A DNA stretch of 64,000 nucleotides, from NCBI GenBank assembly GCA_022925895.1, contig JAKSYS010000104.1, positions 56,787-120,786 of the forward strand. The letters run 5' to 3'. Position 1 is the stretch's first letter; the number at the start of each line of letters is the position of its first letter. The stretch is from Fragilaria crotonensis (lineage: Eukaryota > Bacillariophyta > Fragilariophyceae > Fragilariales > Fragilariaceae). The notes under the pieces were generated by a model, which saw only the letters and a list, made by a program, of their open reading frames with translations, did no database searches and was not told where the DNA came from. Of this stretch, positions 45,730 to 53,317 are shown piece after piece. Position numbers and translations under genes: made by a program.

Positions 45730-45731
45730 TA

Positions 45732-45753
45732 CAGCTGTTTTCATAATCAAATA
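45732..45753 (+). repeat. Left terminal inverted repeat
   Basis: CAGCTGTTTTCATAATCAAA; pairs with 52429-52450 with one clear mismatch in the first 20 bases. Confidence 0.88.
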
Positions 45754-45837
45754 ACCGAACGTAGATCTTGGTAACTTTTGCACGTATATGTTTTCTAACC
45801 TAAGTAAACTAGCTTCGTACTTTGGAGTACTCAAAAA

Positions 45838-46030
45838 ATTAACACGATAATATAACGCATTGATCATGGGGGAATCAGCGGGTCAATGAAGCACATACTG
45901 TTGCAAACTGACAACATGCCCCATGTTACTGCCTCTTGCACCGCCTTGAGGATTGAGTAACATGAGTGATGTTGTCAGTTTTAACATCCCAACCCCCGAT
46001 TCGAGATCATTAGGAGTGCCTTAATGAGAC
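45838..46030 (+). repeat. Diverged duplicate of the transposase gene start
   Basis: Similar to 47110-47300: both have ACGC..(T)GATCATGGGGG, a TCA(A/T)(T/C)GAAGC stretch, AGTAACATGAGTGATG / AGCAACATGAGCGACG, and a start reading MSDVVSFNIPTPDS against MSDDVVSVNLPTPKFE. The left copy hits a stop after about 20 codons. Confidence 0.7.
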
Positions 46031-47109
46031 TGTGCTTCGGTGAGTTTCTGGGCCATACGATTTGAAGCAAAATTCAAATTCAGTTCCCACTGGAGGTAGA
46101 ATATGGCCATCACGTCTCCGCCTTTGTCGTTCTTTACAAGTTTGATATATATTTCCTGAACAGGGGTGGGAGGATGGCCTCCCGGATGTGACAATGATCG
46201 ACCTATCGGAGAGTGTGCGTTAAAAAGTTCACTCGGGTGTCCGTGTCGATGCTAACGATGCGGTATTGCCCAATGCATAATAGAGCTGCTGGAATGCTCA
46301 AGGCATACCATACAATGATAGAGCATCAAGACAAACCAACAGGAAGAAATCCGAGAAGGTCTTGTTCGGTGGCGCGAAGGATCTGCTTCCACGAGTGACG
46401 GTTCATGTAGAGTTGCGCACTACGAAAGGGAATGCTGGTGCGATTGCAGATAACAGGATTACTAGCGACGACGCGCGGCTCAAATTGTTCGCTGTACTCT
46501 GATGATGATGTGACGCTATGATCCAAGTTCTGACGCGGCTCCCTACCTCACTCGTCTCCTTTTTGCAATGTATACTGGTACATCCAAATATGCATTACGC
46601 CTACACACTGCATCACGAAGAGCAAACCATGGGGATTGATATGATTTGCATTGTTGGCGCGCTGGTGGGGAGTCGATGCACTCAATTGAGATGCCACGCA
46701 ATATTGATTCATTATTTGTGCTTGGTGCTGCTTCGATTGGTCGTGCATGCTGGGTGAAAGTTTTATTTGTACTGTTGCATTGGGATTTGTCGTTGGCTCC
46801 GCCGGACCGGCGCCGAGTACGCTCTTGATCATCGTCACTGCAAATGGTTCTGGGGCTGCCACCATGGAGGATATCTCTGCTGATTGTCCTCCAAGGGTGG
46901 CAGAAATGGAATGCTATCTGACGCCATTAAGACGGTCGCTTGATATTGACATCCACAGTCAGGGACATCATGCATCTCCGATCCTCCACGTGAGGAGGCA
47001 GAAGTGGTATGCGATCTGGCATTAGTTCGTCACGACTTTGAAATCGTGGACATCTCCTATTCGCTGATTCTAGAAGAAAGCAATCGAAGCGGAGGTAAAA
47101 CTAGCTTAA
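46031..47109. other. Unidentified sequence inside the nested transposon
   Basis: Lies between the two copies of the transposase 5' region. Frames such as 46747-47025 (+), with FICTVALGFVVGSAGPAPS and SADCPPRVAEMECYL, are not recognised. Confidence 0.35.
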
Positions 47110-47230
47110 GTATACTAGCGTCATAATCAAAAAACGCCTCGATCATGGGGGATTGAATTGAATGGGTCATCGAAGCGCATCCTGTCATAAACTAACGTGT
47201 TGCATATAAGTGCTTTTTAGATTGAGCAAC

Positions 47231-50200
47231 ATGAGCGACGATGTTGTAAGCGTTAATCTCCCAACCCCAAAATTTGAGATAATTAGGAATGCCTTCATAC
47301 AGCTTTGTGCCGATGAAACGTTTCTTCAGTCAGTACGGAGAAAATGGTTGCCAGCGGAAACATGGGCTGCAGCATTGACCATATGTCGTCTTGTTGATGA
47401 AAGTATGTGTACTGTTGATGCAAAAAAGTTCAATGCAGCAATGATTCGAAGCAAACGCCCATTTGATGGGTCCTCGATGGACAGATTTGATGGCACAAAC
47501 AATTCTGGAGTATTCGTATCAAATTCCAAAATATTCTATACTACATGGTCACAGCTCCACTTGAACAAGCAGAGTATCCACGTCCTCTTGATGCAAAGTG
47601 GAAAGAAAGTGTTGTTTCCATGGCTGCGGATGTGCTGTCAAACATCAGAACAAGATCAACGGCATCGCTTGACAGCCTTTTCTCCGCGATGTCATTCAAG
47701 GACAAACTTCAGGTATCGACAAACGAGGCTTCTTCTACTAGTCCCATCACGGAAACCACAATCACAACAACGCACGCTGCCTCTCTCATTTCTTCCCATC
47801 ATTGCCATGATCCGCAAGCTGAACAATTGCAAGAAGGGCTGTATGATGAAACATTGGCACTCCAAAACCAGAAAACAGCAGGAGCATTCTGTTTTTGGAG
47901 TAGTCGTGAGGCTTGGAATCTGTTTGCAGGTGGAAGTGGCACTTCATACGAGCAATTTTCAGCCAATATTACAAACGCTGGTGGTGGTAGTAGTGTTCTA
48001 GACATTTTGGAGGGTCATATTGTGGTTCTACAATCCGTCAGCAAAACTCCGAATGGCTGGAGAAATGTGGTGCCAGGGCGCGATGAGGAAAATGTTTGTT
48101 CTCAATCGGAAATCTTTGTCGTGCGGAGCAGGTCCATTATTCTATGCTTGGCATACCAGACTGCCACTCGGCACATGAATTCATGGACTTGGGCACAGTG
48201 TTGCAGTGAAGCCTGCCGACAACTCAATGAGCTTGGCGTGGTGCAAGCAACAAAACCGCGCAGCGTTCAAGATTGGAATGTGGAGTTCCGCAGGTGCACG
48301 TCTTTCCTTCACCCTAATCATATTGTGAGATGTGGCCGACGCCCTATTCCACGACTCTTCATGAAGTATCCTGATGCAAAAGATCAAATCACAGCATTCG
48401 GTTTGGGCAATCTGACGGTTCTGACAGTTGAATTGGTGCAAGCATTCTGCATCGAAGAGCTCTTCCCCCAAACTGTTCGACCAGTGGTGCAACGATGTTG
48501 AAGAAAGTGACTCTTCCATAAATTCAGCATTGCTGACACAAGAAATGTTTTTGAAGGAACACAACATTAGGAATTTCAGTATTCCGACATGTTGGAGGTG
48601 GATGCATCACCTTGGCTTTGCCTACAGCATACAACAAAAATCATACTACGTTGACGGTCATGAACGTGATGACGTCATAGCAAGTCGAAAGCAGTTCTGT
48701 CGCAAGTACCTTGCCGAGCTTGAACCAAAATGTTTACGATGGGTTCAATACGATTCATGTGAAGTGGAGGCATCACGTCTGGATCCTGAGTTTGGCTACA
48801 AGTATACGCACAATGAGAGCGTATTCTACGAGTTCCATATCGACTACTGCTATCGTTGTGATGCTATGTGTGGAAAAGTTGCATCAATGAGCGTGCGTGC
48901 TCCTCCTGGTTCAAGACCTATTGAAATTTACGGTCAGGATGAATCAGTTTTCTCCCAATTCATGTTTCCCTCAAAGAGTTGGGTAGGCCCAAATCAAGAA
49001 CGAGGGTTGTTTCCCGAAGTCGCTTGGAGAAGGGCTGATGATATCAGCGTTTGTGTCTCGCGACACTGGATTTGGAATGCCGATGACGGATCAAGATCTG
49101 GTACTAGTAAACGCTTCGCGACAAGGAATGCACTATATTGACACAACTGCGGCTCTTGAAGTTCACAAACATACTCGGAAGCAGCCATTGACACAATCAC
49201 CTTTTGTCCGAAATTTGCTTATAGGAGCCACGAAAGGGGGCTATTGGAATAGCTTTCATATGGCAATTCAATTGGAGGATGTCACCGATTGTTTAAAAGT
49301 TATCCGACCTCAAGTTGAGTTTGTTTTTATGTTTGATCACAGCCAAGGTCATGCTCGGAAAAAAGACGGGGCTCTTGATGCACAAAGTATGTCTCGGAGT
49401 TTTGGTGGTACCCAACCTAAAATGCACTCGTCCAAGATTACAGGCAACTGCCTTGGCCCATTCGAATCTATATTGAGGATTGGCGATGAGCAAAGTATGG
49501 TCTTTCAGACTGAAGACCAAGGTCCATGGTGGTTGGCTTCAACCGAAGTTCGAGAGAGACGAAAGTTTGATATTCATGACAACAGTGGCCGAACTAAAGT
49601 TGTGTCACGGACACGGGCTGAGTTGGTATCTGCACTGTTGGAGGAATCCGGCATCGCCATAGAGTCCAATCGCCCCTTGAATGAGCTGAAAGAACTTGCA
49701 ACTATTCATGGTGTCAGTCTGACACGCGAGAAAGTCTTTGTCACTGAAGGTTGGCACGGCAAAGCAAAGGGACTTCTGCAAGTTTTATGGGAGCGAGGGT
49801 GGATTGATACATCTAAATGCAAAGAACAAAAGGACAAAGAAGGAAACAAAGTGATAAATACGTCGTATTATACACTTATCGGACGTAAAGATCCGGCGAC
49901 TGGTCAGATCATTGAATCATCGTCACTTCGAGCACTGATGGGCAACTGTTTCGACTTCAAGACCGAGGAAACAGCATTACAATTTTGGGCTCCCAACTTG
50001 GTGTACACGTAATGCTCACACCAAAATTTCACTGTGAATTAGCGGGTGAAGGAATTGAGTATGCATGGGCACAAGCGAAGGCACTAATGAGGAGAACACC
50101 GATGCAGGAGAAGAAAGGTCGAGTCAATTTCATGAATGTTGTCATGAGGTGTCTTTGCCCTGAAACAGTCTTGACCAAAGAGCGAGTTAGAAAATTTGCC

Positions 50201-50389
50201 TCAAGAGCGCGAGCGTATATATGCACCTACTATTACCTTGAACAAGAGACCAACGGCAGTGATGACATTGGTGGCACCACAGCTGCAAAACAGCAACTCC
50301 TTTACAAGAAGATCGAACAACTCATGAAAAGATTCAAAGCACATCGCTGTGCTTTGACTTTGACATGCGTTTTGTCCTCGCAGTATTGA
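47231..50389 (+). CDS. DDE transposase of the nested Tc1/mariner-type element, frame-broken
   Basis: ATG at 47231 (MSDDVVSVNLPTPKFEIIRN). The pieces follow in order through at least four frame changes (near 47545, 48440, 49035, 49995). Visible parts: PRSVQDWNVEFRR; FSIPTCWRWMHHLGFAYS, a helix-turn-helix-like segment; KSYYVDGHERDDVIASRK; IYGQDESVFSQFMFPSKSW (first catalytic Asp); VEFVFMFDHSQGHARKKDG (second Asp); PKFHCELAGEGIEYAWAQAK (the Glu of the DDE triad). A region ELVSALLEESGIAIESNRPL looks SAP-like. The order agrees with Tc1/mariner-type DDE proteins (DDE_3-like), though at about 1000 residues it is much longer than mariner transposases. This copy cannot be read as one protein unless the breaks are sequence errors. 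Confidence 0.75.
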
Positions 50390-50666
50390 AGGGACAGGAT
50401 GAGGACGAGAATACTGCATGAGAGCATGCTCACTTGTCCAGAGTCACGAGAGGGTTGCCCGGATTGCCCAACTGACACGTGATTCGACATACTGCTCAGT
50501 AGAAGCGAACAATGGGGTCAATGATAGCCATAGTAGGGTGTAACAAATGACATCGCTCTTCAATCGGCACTTGTTCCGTCGATTCACAGTCTCTGATAGT
50601 GTGGCCATATTCAACGCTGCTTGATAGCATCAACAAATCAATAGCATTGTTGTTCGATGCGGTTGC

Positions 50667-51334
50667 ATGGCGTCATTGACTTTGGAATTCTACTCCACCA
50701 GCACCTGGCTTAGATCTTTCGGGTGTGGTCGTACCATTGCCATTGATGGCATTATACATTGGAGCCTGACAGCAACACTTTTTGAATTTGGTGTTACTAA
50801 AGTCAACCGCGGAGTTCGTGTGCACCTCTATTCCGCCCTTCTTGCCGATTGTCAGCAACACATTGAGGTTGAAGATTGTCTTCTCAGGAACGGACCGTGC
50901 CAACAGATGCCCAACTTCCGATCCTCTTTTCCAGTCTGACTTTCCTCCTCATCGAATGCCTCCGCCACCACACCAGCCAGTACCATATTTAAGAAACGTT
51001 ACATGATCCTGCCTTGAACAACTCCTTGCCGACCTTCAAAAACTTTCCTTGGCACGGCTTCAACCCAGCGAGAACAATATCAAATTTGAACGCATCAAAC
51101 GTAAAAGTGACCTTCGCAATATCAGGCTCAGTAACTACAATATTCGCAATCTCAGGCTCAGTAACTGCAATCTTCACACTTCGCAATCTCATAGTGCAAG
51201 CTTCACAAACGACTGCATTGCTGCAAGGCACCTCAAGCATGATGGTCGCCAACATTGATGATGTTCCTTGTTACTCTGCAATACCCATGGCAGTTCCAAA
51301 GTTGCGTGCTATCATGAGCTTTTTCTTAAGTTGA
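50667..51334 (-). other. Unrecognised open sequence inside the nested transposon
   Basis: Two minus-strand frames (51255-50989 and 50903-50673) read as protein-like: VPCSNAVVCEACTMRLRSVK, an internal duplication VTEPEIAN / VTEPDIAK, and VLLTIGKKGGIEVHTNSAVD. I do not recognise a family. It may be a second captured host fragment, since it lies next to the methionine synthase piece and in the same orientation. Confidence 0.35.
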
Positions 51335-51382
51335 TTGCACCTCAGGGCAATCCTACCAGTCGATGTTCAACAATGGTATTCC

Positions 51383-52266
51383 CTATTGGTTGTGCATTGT
51401 CAACAACAAGATCCATACAACCTTAAAGCAACTTTCACCGGAGCGAAGACCCAAATCAGGAAGCTTGCAAGGCTTATAGTTTGAAGCCATCTCGCGGATT
51501 GCCTTAAGGTGAGGTGGGGTCAACCCGCAGCAACCACCCGCCATGTTCAGCCGTCCCTTATCAAAACACGCCTTGTTGTGCATCAACATCGTGTCGAGCG
51601 CGTCATTGTAGCCACCCATGTTGTTCGGGAGATTTGCACTACTCGCATACATGCAGTGTTTGCCACCTTAGTAAACGCCTTCGCAAGACGCTCCGCCGCG
51701 AAAGGAACCATGTGGTGCTTAGCACCTAGTAGAGGAGCGCAGTTCAGTCCGACACACATGCAATTCTTGGCGTGCCGGATTGATGCATAGAACGCCTTGT
51801 CCGTCTAACCTGACAGAGAATGTCCCGATTGGTCAACCAATGAACCACCACTAAAGAAAGGAATGTCTAAACGAGGACTGTATTCCGAAGTAAAGTAGCC
51901 ACTCGCGTACAATACCGCCTTCGCATTCAACCCTCTGCCATTCATCAACAACCACACAGTATGCTTCAATTATCTGTGAATCGACTCGTCAAACGCCACA
52001 TTGCGGGCACTAGGATCCTCCACACCACTCGGACCGATACTGTCTTCGCGGTTCGTCGGTCCCAGTGAACCCACCACGAAGTGGTGCGGTTTGATGGGGC
52101 CCTTCGACATCACCTCGTCGCACGCCTCACCTGTCAGCCGTGCGCAAACATAGTTCAACTCGTATGCATACACCTCCACCTCGTAGTCCGCCATGCATGG
52201 CAGCCCGCAGTCGTCGACGAGAACGTGGAATACGGTTGTTGCGATCCGCATCCGACAAGGGCAGAG
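51383..52266 (-). pseudogene. metH: Captured fragment of cobalamin-dependent methionine synthase
   Basis: Minus-strand frames match, in order, the homocysteine S-methyltransferase (N-terminal) domain of MetH: TFSSTTA, then MADYEVEVYAYELNYVCARL, FVVGSLGPTNREDSIGPSG and VEDPSARNVAFDE, then SGGSLVDQSGHSLSG, FYASIRHAKNCMCVGLNCA, and finally LPNNMGGYND, NMAGGCCGLTPPHLKAIRE. The zinc ligands C (GLNCA) and CC (GGCCG) are visible. At least three frame changes and an internal stop, no start and no cobalamin-binding, SAM-activation or folate domain: it is a gene piece of about 290 codons, not an enzyme. It lies inside the TIRs of the nested transposon, so it moves with it. Confidence 0.85.
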
Positions 52267-52428
52267 GTTTAGACGGAATGAAATCTCATGTGAATAAACT
52301 ACTACTGTACTCAGTCAGCCGTCGGATCCGAGAAGGGTATGGCGTGTGGCTATTCAAATTGTTTTGCTGACGTCTACTATGGAAATTATTGTATCCCTGT
52401 AGAAAGATTACTACAGTCTATGCGATGC

Positions 52429-52450
52429 CATTTGATTATGAAACCAGCTG
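52429..52450 (-). repeat. Right terminal inverted repeat
   Basis: Its complement starts CAGCTGGTTTCATAATCAAA. Followed by the TA target duplication at 52451-52452. Confidence 0.88.
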
Positions 52451-52452
52451 TA

Positions 52453-53317
52453 CATGGATACCACTCTTGCGTGGGAGGAAACTGTCCCAGCAAAAGCGAG
52501 TATTGTCGTCGACGATGCGAAGCCAGTACCGGTTGGAGTTCAACGAATCACTGAACGGACCCGAAATGTCCAAGAAGAGTCGTTCGCCGGGGGCCTTTGC
52601 CTTAGTCAACGTAGATTTAGGTACTGCCTTTGCGCGAGCCTTGGCCAACGCACACGACCCACAGGGTTGCACCACGCCGGTCAGAGTCCAATTGTGACGG
52701 GTTGCCATCGCCTTAACAGTACGAGTGTCCGGATGACCGAGTACCGAATGTGCAATGTTGATGTCTAGCGTTACCGGCTTTGTAGTAAGGCTATGTACCG
52801 ATTCGTCGCTCGAAGTACGCATGCCCGTAAGGTAGTAGAGCTGGTCGTTGTCGTGTCGAGCAAAGCGAACCACCGTTCCCTTACCCGGATCCGTCAAGAC
52901 AAATTCACTCTTGTCTGCAATGTCCAGCTTCCAATCATCGTCAATGAGTTTGCGGAGGCTGACGATATGTTTAGTAAACTTGGGGGCATAATATACATCT
53001 GTCAAAGTTACCAGAACACCATGTTGATCCGTCATTGTGACCGTTCCTTGGCCGAGAGTAGCGATCTGCGCTCCGTTACCGATGGTGATCATTTTGTCCG
53101 AGGGGCGCATGGCCGACATTAGGCGTTGATCGTAGGTGACCCCACACGTAGCGCCAGAATCAAGTAGCCATTCCTCCGTGCCATCTGCTGCGGCCGTACC
53201 AACAAACTCAGTCTCAATTGCGCTGACGTTGACAAATTCCGATGTCCCGTTCTGATGCGTATCAACTTCATCCGGCACTCGGACGTCGTCGTCGAAAAAA
53301 GTAGTAAAGTCCTCCAT
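52453..53317 (-). pseudogene. Copia pol, 5' part: protease, zinc-binding and integrase start
   Basis: Protease: EEWLLDSGATCGVTY (D-S-G catalytic triplet), TIGNGAQIATLGQG, DVYYAPKF. Then the GAG-pre-integrase His/Cys motif, HSVLGHPDTRTVKAMA and GVVQPCGSCALAKARAKAVP. The integrase core begins LFLDISGPFSDSLNSNRYW (first Asp) and RIVDDNTRFCWDSFLPRKSG, and stops where the Tc1/mariner-type transposon entered (52450). The last six codons of the long frame come from the transposon end. Confidence 0.9.

Follow-up and report, generated by a model that had tools for sequence, protein, structure and literature searches.

The window analysed here is a stretch of 64,000 nucleotides from the diatom Fragilaria crotonensis (positions 56787-120786 of contig JAKSYS010000104.1, hereafter C9; the genome searched comprises 62.1 Mb in 881 contigs). 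It contains a DNA transposon that is nested in a retroelement and carries, between its inverted ends, a decayed part of the gene for the cobalamin-dependent methionine synthase (MetH). The features of the locus are listed below in window coordinates.

45730-45731 and 52451-52452: TA flanking the DNA transposon
45732-52450, plus strand: DNA transposon (same unit in C193 with different flanks; empty site in C537)
45732-45779, plus strand: left inverted end, CAGCTG... (repeat search, flanking bases excluded; ends aligned with other copies)
47210-50386, plus strand: transposase region, frame broken in C9 (open frame in C183; codon-position constraint)
51013-52227, minus strand: MetH fragment covering the homocysteine domain (starting near module residue 180) and continuing into the folate domain (as far as about residue 570)
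51524-51538, minus strand: second zinc-ligand motif, GGCCG
51739-51756, minus strand: first zinc-ligand motif, CVGLNC
52234-52290, minus strand: trace of the linker that precedes the homocysteine domain in MetH, beside the right end (short alignment by eye, no significance test)
52403-52450, minus strand: right inverted end, ...CAGCTG (repeat search, flanking bases excluded; ends aligned with other copies)
52436-53317, minus strand: part of a retroelement, presumably copia-type in view of its Pol_BBD match, in which the transposon is nested (Pfam; uninterrupted relative on C537)

The transposon has terminal inverted repeats of 51 nt that are 73% complementary in the repeat search, and TA was found at either flank of each copy that was read at both its ends, five in total (C9, C193, C183, C534 and C619). 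The unit in C193 is an end-to-end match of the C9 unit, MetH piece included, from which it differs by 3 substitutions and 17 indels over 6.7 kb, and the flanks of the two differ; a related unit is present in C183. A transposon-free version of the sequence flanking the C9 unit is found in C537, with a single TA at the join. The second insertion site and the empty site thus indicate movement as a whole unit inclusive of the MetH piece, and the ends and the target site suggest a cut-and-paste mode for the family. The surrounding retroelement part matches Pol_BBD (E 9.2e-16) and, below the cut-off of that profile, gag_pre-integrs (E 2e-4). A direct repeat was also observed within the transposon (45847-45996 and 47126-47268; pieces of 27 and 29 nt at 81-83%, spacing 1272-1279), both parts of which are matched in C183 as well.

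The transposase frame of C183 is open over 1072 aa, or 1056 aa when counted from its first ATG. Within this reading frame, single-base frame differences number five in C9 and four in C193, with none shared, and the sole length difference from C183 that is common to C9 and C193 lies upstream of the first ATG. The broken frames may therefore be long-read errors, and C9 and C193 may each have an open transposase frame like that of C183. Of the 17 indels between C9 and C193, 11 span a single base, and most adjoin single-base runs (by eye); given the possibility of read errors, the age of this pair is to be judged by the three substitutions.

The first-pass annotation had regarded the element as of the Tc1/mariner type, and the TA target duplication and the inverted ends agree with this assignment, whereas the transposase does not lend it support. 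The C183 protein (1056 aa) has no significant match, to a Tc1/mariner transposase profile or otherwise, in Pfam, NCBIfam or the PDB sequences, the best E-values (0.057, 0.068 and 0.17, respectively) all being to unrelated proteins. Relatives of the transposase were absent from the viral contig collection, and none of 11 pattern matches in the genome contig collection was confirmed. The translation, judged by eye, contains the acidic motifs QDES, FDHS and HCEFAGEGIE, with a second spacing that appears to exceed 200 residues; the DDE/D triad of Tc1/mariner transposases has a short second spacing of about 34-41 residues. Membership of Tc1/mariner is putative, the label resting on the target duplication and the inverted ends and not on the transposase.

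The MetH piece is situated between the transposase region and the right end, antisense to the transposase, and is decayed. A tblastn search with the host MetH recovers three colinear pieces (52194-51682, 51643-51362 and 51342-51013; E 3e-87), and the profile PF02574 (homocysteine S-methyltransferase) matches the minus strand at 51350-52302 in two of the three frames (E 1.4e-11 and 4.9e-7, with stops read as X). At the DNA level, the fragment is 71% identical to the host MetH (C218) over 863 bases (51365-52227). The C and CC motifs of the MetH homocysteine domain are zinc ligands; both are found, CVGLNC and GGCCG lying in different frames. The profile, the significant tblastn match and the two motifs uphold the earlier claim that pieces of the MetH homocysteine domain lie between the transposon ends, and the piece described at 51383-52266 is real; the stretch is longer than had been described, running from about 52290 to 51013 and reaching the folate domain. 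With a piece of a host gene between the transposon ends and its parent at another genomic locus, the arrangement qualifies as transduplication. The alternative that a MetH pseudogene came to lie in or beside the transposon by chance, or as a separate insertion, would suit the decayed state of the fragment, but it is hardly conceivable and was rejected: the same unit with MetH occurs at a second insertion site (C193), related units such as that of C183 occur elsewhere, and the site in C537 is empty.

The parent gene could be located. A full MetH occurs once in the genome, at C218:638382-646985, as a single open frame of 2867 aa. It encodes the homocysteine and the pterin-binding domain three times each, followed by one set of B12-binding domains and, in the stretch scanned, the start of the activation domain. 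The units are spaced 2253 nt apart; 71 bases differ between the first and the second, and the first and the third differ by 6.3, 4.8 and 16.7% at codon positions 1, 2 and 3 (713 codons), so that the units are not one sequence duplicated by the assembler. Independent evidence that the tandem modules are real is provided by the transposon piece in C259, which spans the join of two units (89.5% identity, 1142 columns). Gene conversion is suggested by tracts, up to 560 bases long, in which the units are identical. The available text of one study (PMC4523565) describes, for Phaeodactylum tricornutum, a doubled MetH and pterin-binding domain, and tandem modules are thus not new in diatoms; a MetH with three of them was not encountered in the literature searched, as far as its available text extends. 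Exon boundaries, proposed earlier for telling an RNA from a DNA capture, do not separate the two, since the host gene is a single frame without introns. As for other methionine synthase matches, C60 contains a separate open frame of 368 aa with a PF02574 match, which is not among the MetH search matches, and C76:239359-240283 has a MetE-type (PF01717) match in two abutting frames, possibly owing to a frameshift, an intron or a long-read error. In view of this MetE-type match, B12 dependence is not assertable.

The genome was searched for MetH with a query of 1177 residues, comprising the last module, the B12-binding part and the start of the activation domain (E 0.01). The 32 matches fall in C218, in eight transposon-bearing contigs (C9, C193, C183, C534, C619, C246, C498 and C259) and, as two short matches, in C86 and C217. 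With C246 and C498 taken as one locus (98.9% over 9.5 kb) and the two short matches not counted, the further copies that the first-pass annotation had proposed to look for amount, with that of the window, to seven distinct MetH-bearing insertions of the transposon family. A search for the right end in C246/C498 was negative, and C380 has at most a 50-base MetH trace (E 0.14). No pieces of the B12-binding or activation part were detected outside C218 with this query at E 0.01. The matches in C86 (37120-37473) and C217 (9154-9417) cover short parts of the folate domain, contain stops and resemble MetH at 42-45%; neither the transposon ends nor the transposase, when used as queries, matched these two contigs.

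The copies in C534, C619, C246/C498 and C259 lack a transposase match, both inside and next to their ends, and would represent non-autonomous relatives. Transposase relatives devoid of MetH (no match at E 0.01 in the stretches examined or in their contigs) are present in C185, C273, C658, C573 and C424, in each of which 298 bases separate the transposase match from that of the right end. These five relatives suggest that the transposon is older than its cargo, loss of the cargo being also possible. In a sister subfamily (C800:17135-18615, C657, C356 and C365:15260-17877), about 1.5 kb lies between the transposase and the right end; its pieces match C365 in order, and also C356 (67-84%), and it is possibly a second captured host sequence. 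Another cargo, of 1.2 kb and matched nowhere else, is seen in C105/C339. The cargoes of C800 and C105 contain no Pfam domain at the cut-off, with one sub-threshold match (E 0.059).

The MetH pieces of C9 and C183 differ by 32.2, 31.4 and 35.1% at codon positions 1, 2 and 3 (382 codons) and their transposases by 8.5, 7.4 and 23.6% (1057 codons), even differences in the one and uneven differences in the other that indicate little or no constraint on the MetH piece and a transposase that has been kept, with the caveat that poor alignment of decayed pieces can level the codon-position counts. Between C9 and MetH module 1, the differences are 22.3, 21.3 and 38.3% (431 codons), a pattern that would be expected if the element copy has decayed and the host gene has changed mostly at silent sites. 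An unrooted tree of nine sequences was inferred from codons 380-690, with poorly aligned codons dropped; it did not include C193, C498 or the other half of C259. The branch lengths at positions 1+2 and at position 3 are 0.207 and 0.355 for C9 and 0.191 and 0.208 for C183; the third-position excess on the C9 branch would count against fully free decay and leave room for some constraint.

The reading favoured here, to which we assign a probability of about 0.85, is that a transposon family with TA target duplication took up an internal part of the host MetH in the ancestor of C9/C193 and C183, and that this part has since been a passenger under little or no constraint. A single shared uptake rests on the gene order and the MetH stretches common to C9 and C183; their joins differ, the MetH of C183 starting at about module residue 141 and that of C9 at about residue 179 with the linker trace. 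The uptake would have placed the piece antisense to the transposase, between the transposase and the right end, and may have proceeded by repair synthesis templated on the MetH gene after a break or at an excision gap, through template switching. Thereafter, the MetH piece would have decayed under little or no constraint, presumably without a function, while the transposase was kept. Nothing in the sequence speaks for a product of the MetH piece.

The copies are not of one age. Identity to the host modules is about 88-94% in C534, C619, C246/C498 and C259 as against 69-75% in C9 and C183, and one capture with equal decay everywhere is rejected on these values. The host MetH has probably been sampled more than once by the transposon family. 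The composition of the fresher copies was examined along their length. Compared with module 3 at codon positions 1+2, C534 differs by 15.9% in residues 299-395 and by 4.8% in residues 395-750 (Fisher 7.4e-6), and C619 by 15.2% and 5.3% (Fisher 6.3e-5), values to be read with the cut (nucleotide 1185, residue 395) having been picked after the alignments were seen and with the two copies being near relatives (98% alike) and not two independent tests. The step at positions 1+2 is absent in C9 (Fisher 0.82) and C183 (0.11), and C246, with only 15 codons before the cut, gives 0.10. Over all sites, the two parts differ from module 3 by 18.7% and 9.3% in C534 (break placed best at residue 399; a fit as good in 15 out of 1000 block shuffles) and by 18.0% and 9.1% in C619 (19 of 1000); with the same reference, shuffles as good numbered 163 per 1000 for C246, 349 for C9 and 642 for C183. 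Fisher values for all sites at nucleotide 1185 are 2.0e-4 (C534) and 4.1e-4 (C619) with module 3 and 1.3e-2 and 9.9e-3 with module 1. With the latter as reference, the best break in C534, C619 and C246 moves to residue 702-703, because the tails of these copies are of module-3 type. A larger step (about 77% vs 89-94%), obtained from the multiple alignment, was discarded as pairwise alignment gives a smaller one. All 11 indels of C534 in nucleotides 893-1112 recur in C619, which makes read errors an unlikely cause. C534 and C619 are read as an old MetH stub followed by fresher host sequence that would stem from a new capture or from homology-guided re-copying.

Wholly independent captures of MetH by one family, instead of one capture with later top-ups, are a serious contender, at somewhat short of even odds. 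They would account for the difference in identity to the host between the fresher copies and C9/C183, for the two-module boundary spanned by C259 and for the last-module type of the tails in the C534 group. On the other hand, C9, C193, C534, C619 and C259 have in common a short sequence where MetH meets the right end (by eye), and a clean new capture does not predict residues 299-395 of C534 and C619 to be more changed than residues 395-750. The tree, in which a group of all element copies has a support of 59, one of C9/C183 plus the C534 group 37 and one of module 3 plus the elements 33, appears compatible with one capture as well as with several. We tentatively propose that the homology of a captured piece may let repair synthesis re-copy fresh, longer stretches of the gene repeatedly, the family being a layered record; this rests on the passage from stub to fresh MetH in C534/C619 and from the old join to a fresh two-module stretch in C259.

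Selection of the MetH part in the transposon for a time, as a useful cargo that was broken later in each lineage, would be in line with the grouping of all element copies against the host modules in the unrooted tree (support 59), with a constrained C9+C183 stem (0.023 at positions 1+2 and 0.235 at position 3) and with the mostly third-position differences between C259 and module 2 (4.0, 2.2 and 17.9%, 223 codons). This is nevertheless unlikely: host-gene evolution between uptakes accounts for the constrained stem just as well and is the simplest reading of it, none of the copies found could be a complete enzyme, there being no B12-binding or activation pieces among the matches outside C218, and the pieces of each copy have at least one stop, though read errors could explain some.

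The first-pass annotation had also raised antisense or small-RNA effects on the parent gene. Read-through from the transposase would yield antisense RNA of MetH, and many exact 21-mer positions are common to the host MetH and the fresher copies (C534, 181; C619, 247; C246, 186; C498, 186; C259, 183), but only one each to C9 and C193, seven to C183 and none to C380. The five fresher copies, in turn, lack a transposase match beside MetH and hence transposase read-through. A source of small RNA acting on the parent MetH is on balance very improbable, and with a single 21-mer position in common the proposed effect is unlikely for the window copy; the fresher copies (C534, C619, C246/C498 and C259) are the better candidates.

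Gene capture had been thought, in the first pass, to be unknown for Tc1/mariner-type elements in diatoms. No report on point for diatom DNA transposons was found in the literature searched (most subscription journals lay outside its scope), and the plant review PMC13317346 does not mention diatoms, Tc1, SDSA or gene conversion; mariner-type elements that capture genes, the Pack-Mariners, are however described in rice in the available part of PMC8903248. From the same source, the present element is like a rice Pack-Mariner in being a TA-flanked DNA transposon with host gene pieces between its inverted ends, and unlike it in that Pack-Mariners are non-autonomous plant elements, whereas the cargo here also occurs in C183 with an open transposase frame, in a diatom, and consists of pieces of one gene at different ages. 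Together with the rice elements, the histone H3 captured by a hAT transposon in Pseudocercospora and its relatives (PMC6710886, as far as available) is the nearest known case encountered; there, too, a housekeeping gene in a DNA transposon has been multiplied as broken copies. The fungal case involves hundreds of copies and inactivation by RIP, while seven insertions and gradual decay are seen here. Turmoil-1 of C. elegans, going by the accessible portion of PMC2572040, likewise has protein-coding pieces in a DNA transposon outside plants, which lie in the inverted terminal repeats, unlike the MetH piece.

The capture of a housekeeping gene by a TA-flanked DNA transposon is thereby extended to a diatom. 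Repeated sampling of one gene, if true, would be a variant on known capture. A single genome holds the carrier, the parent gene, cargo-free relatives, a site without the element and copies of two or more ages, and offers a compact case for how transposons acquire genes and whether homology makes the same gene re-acquired.
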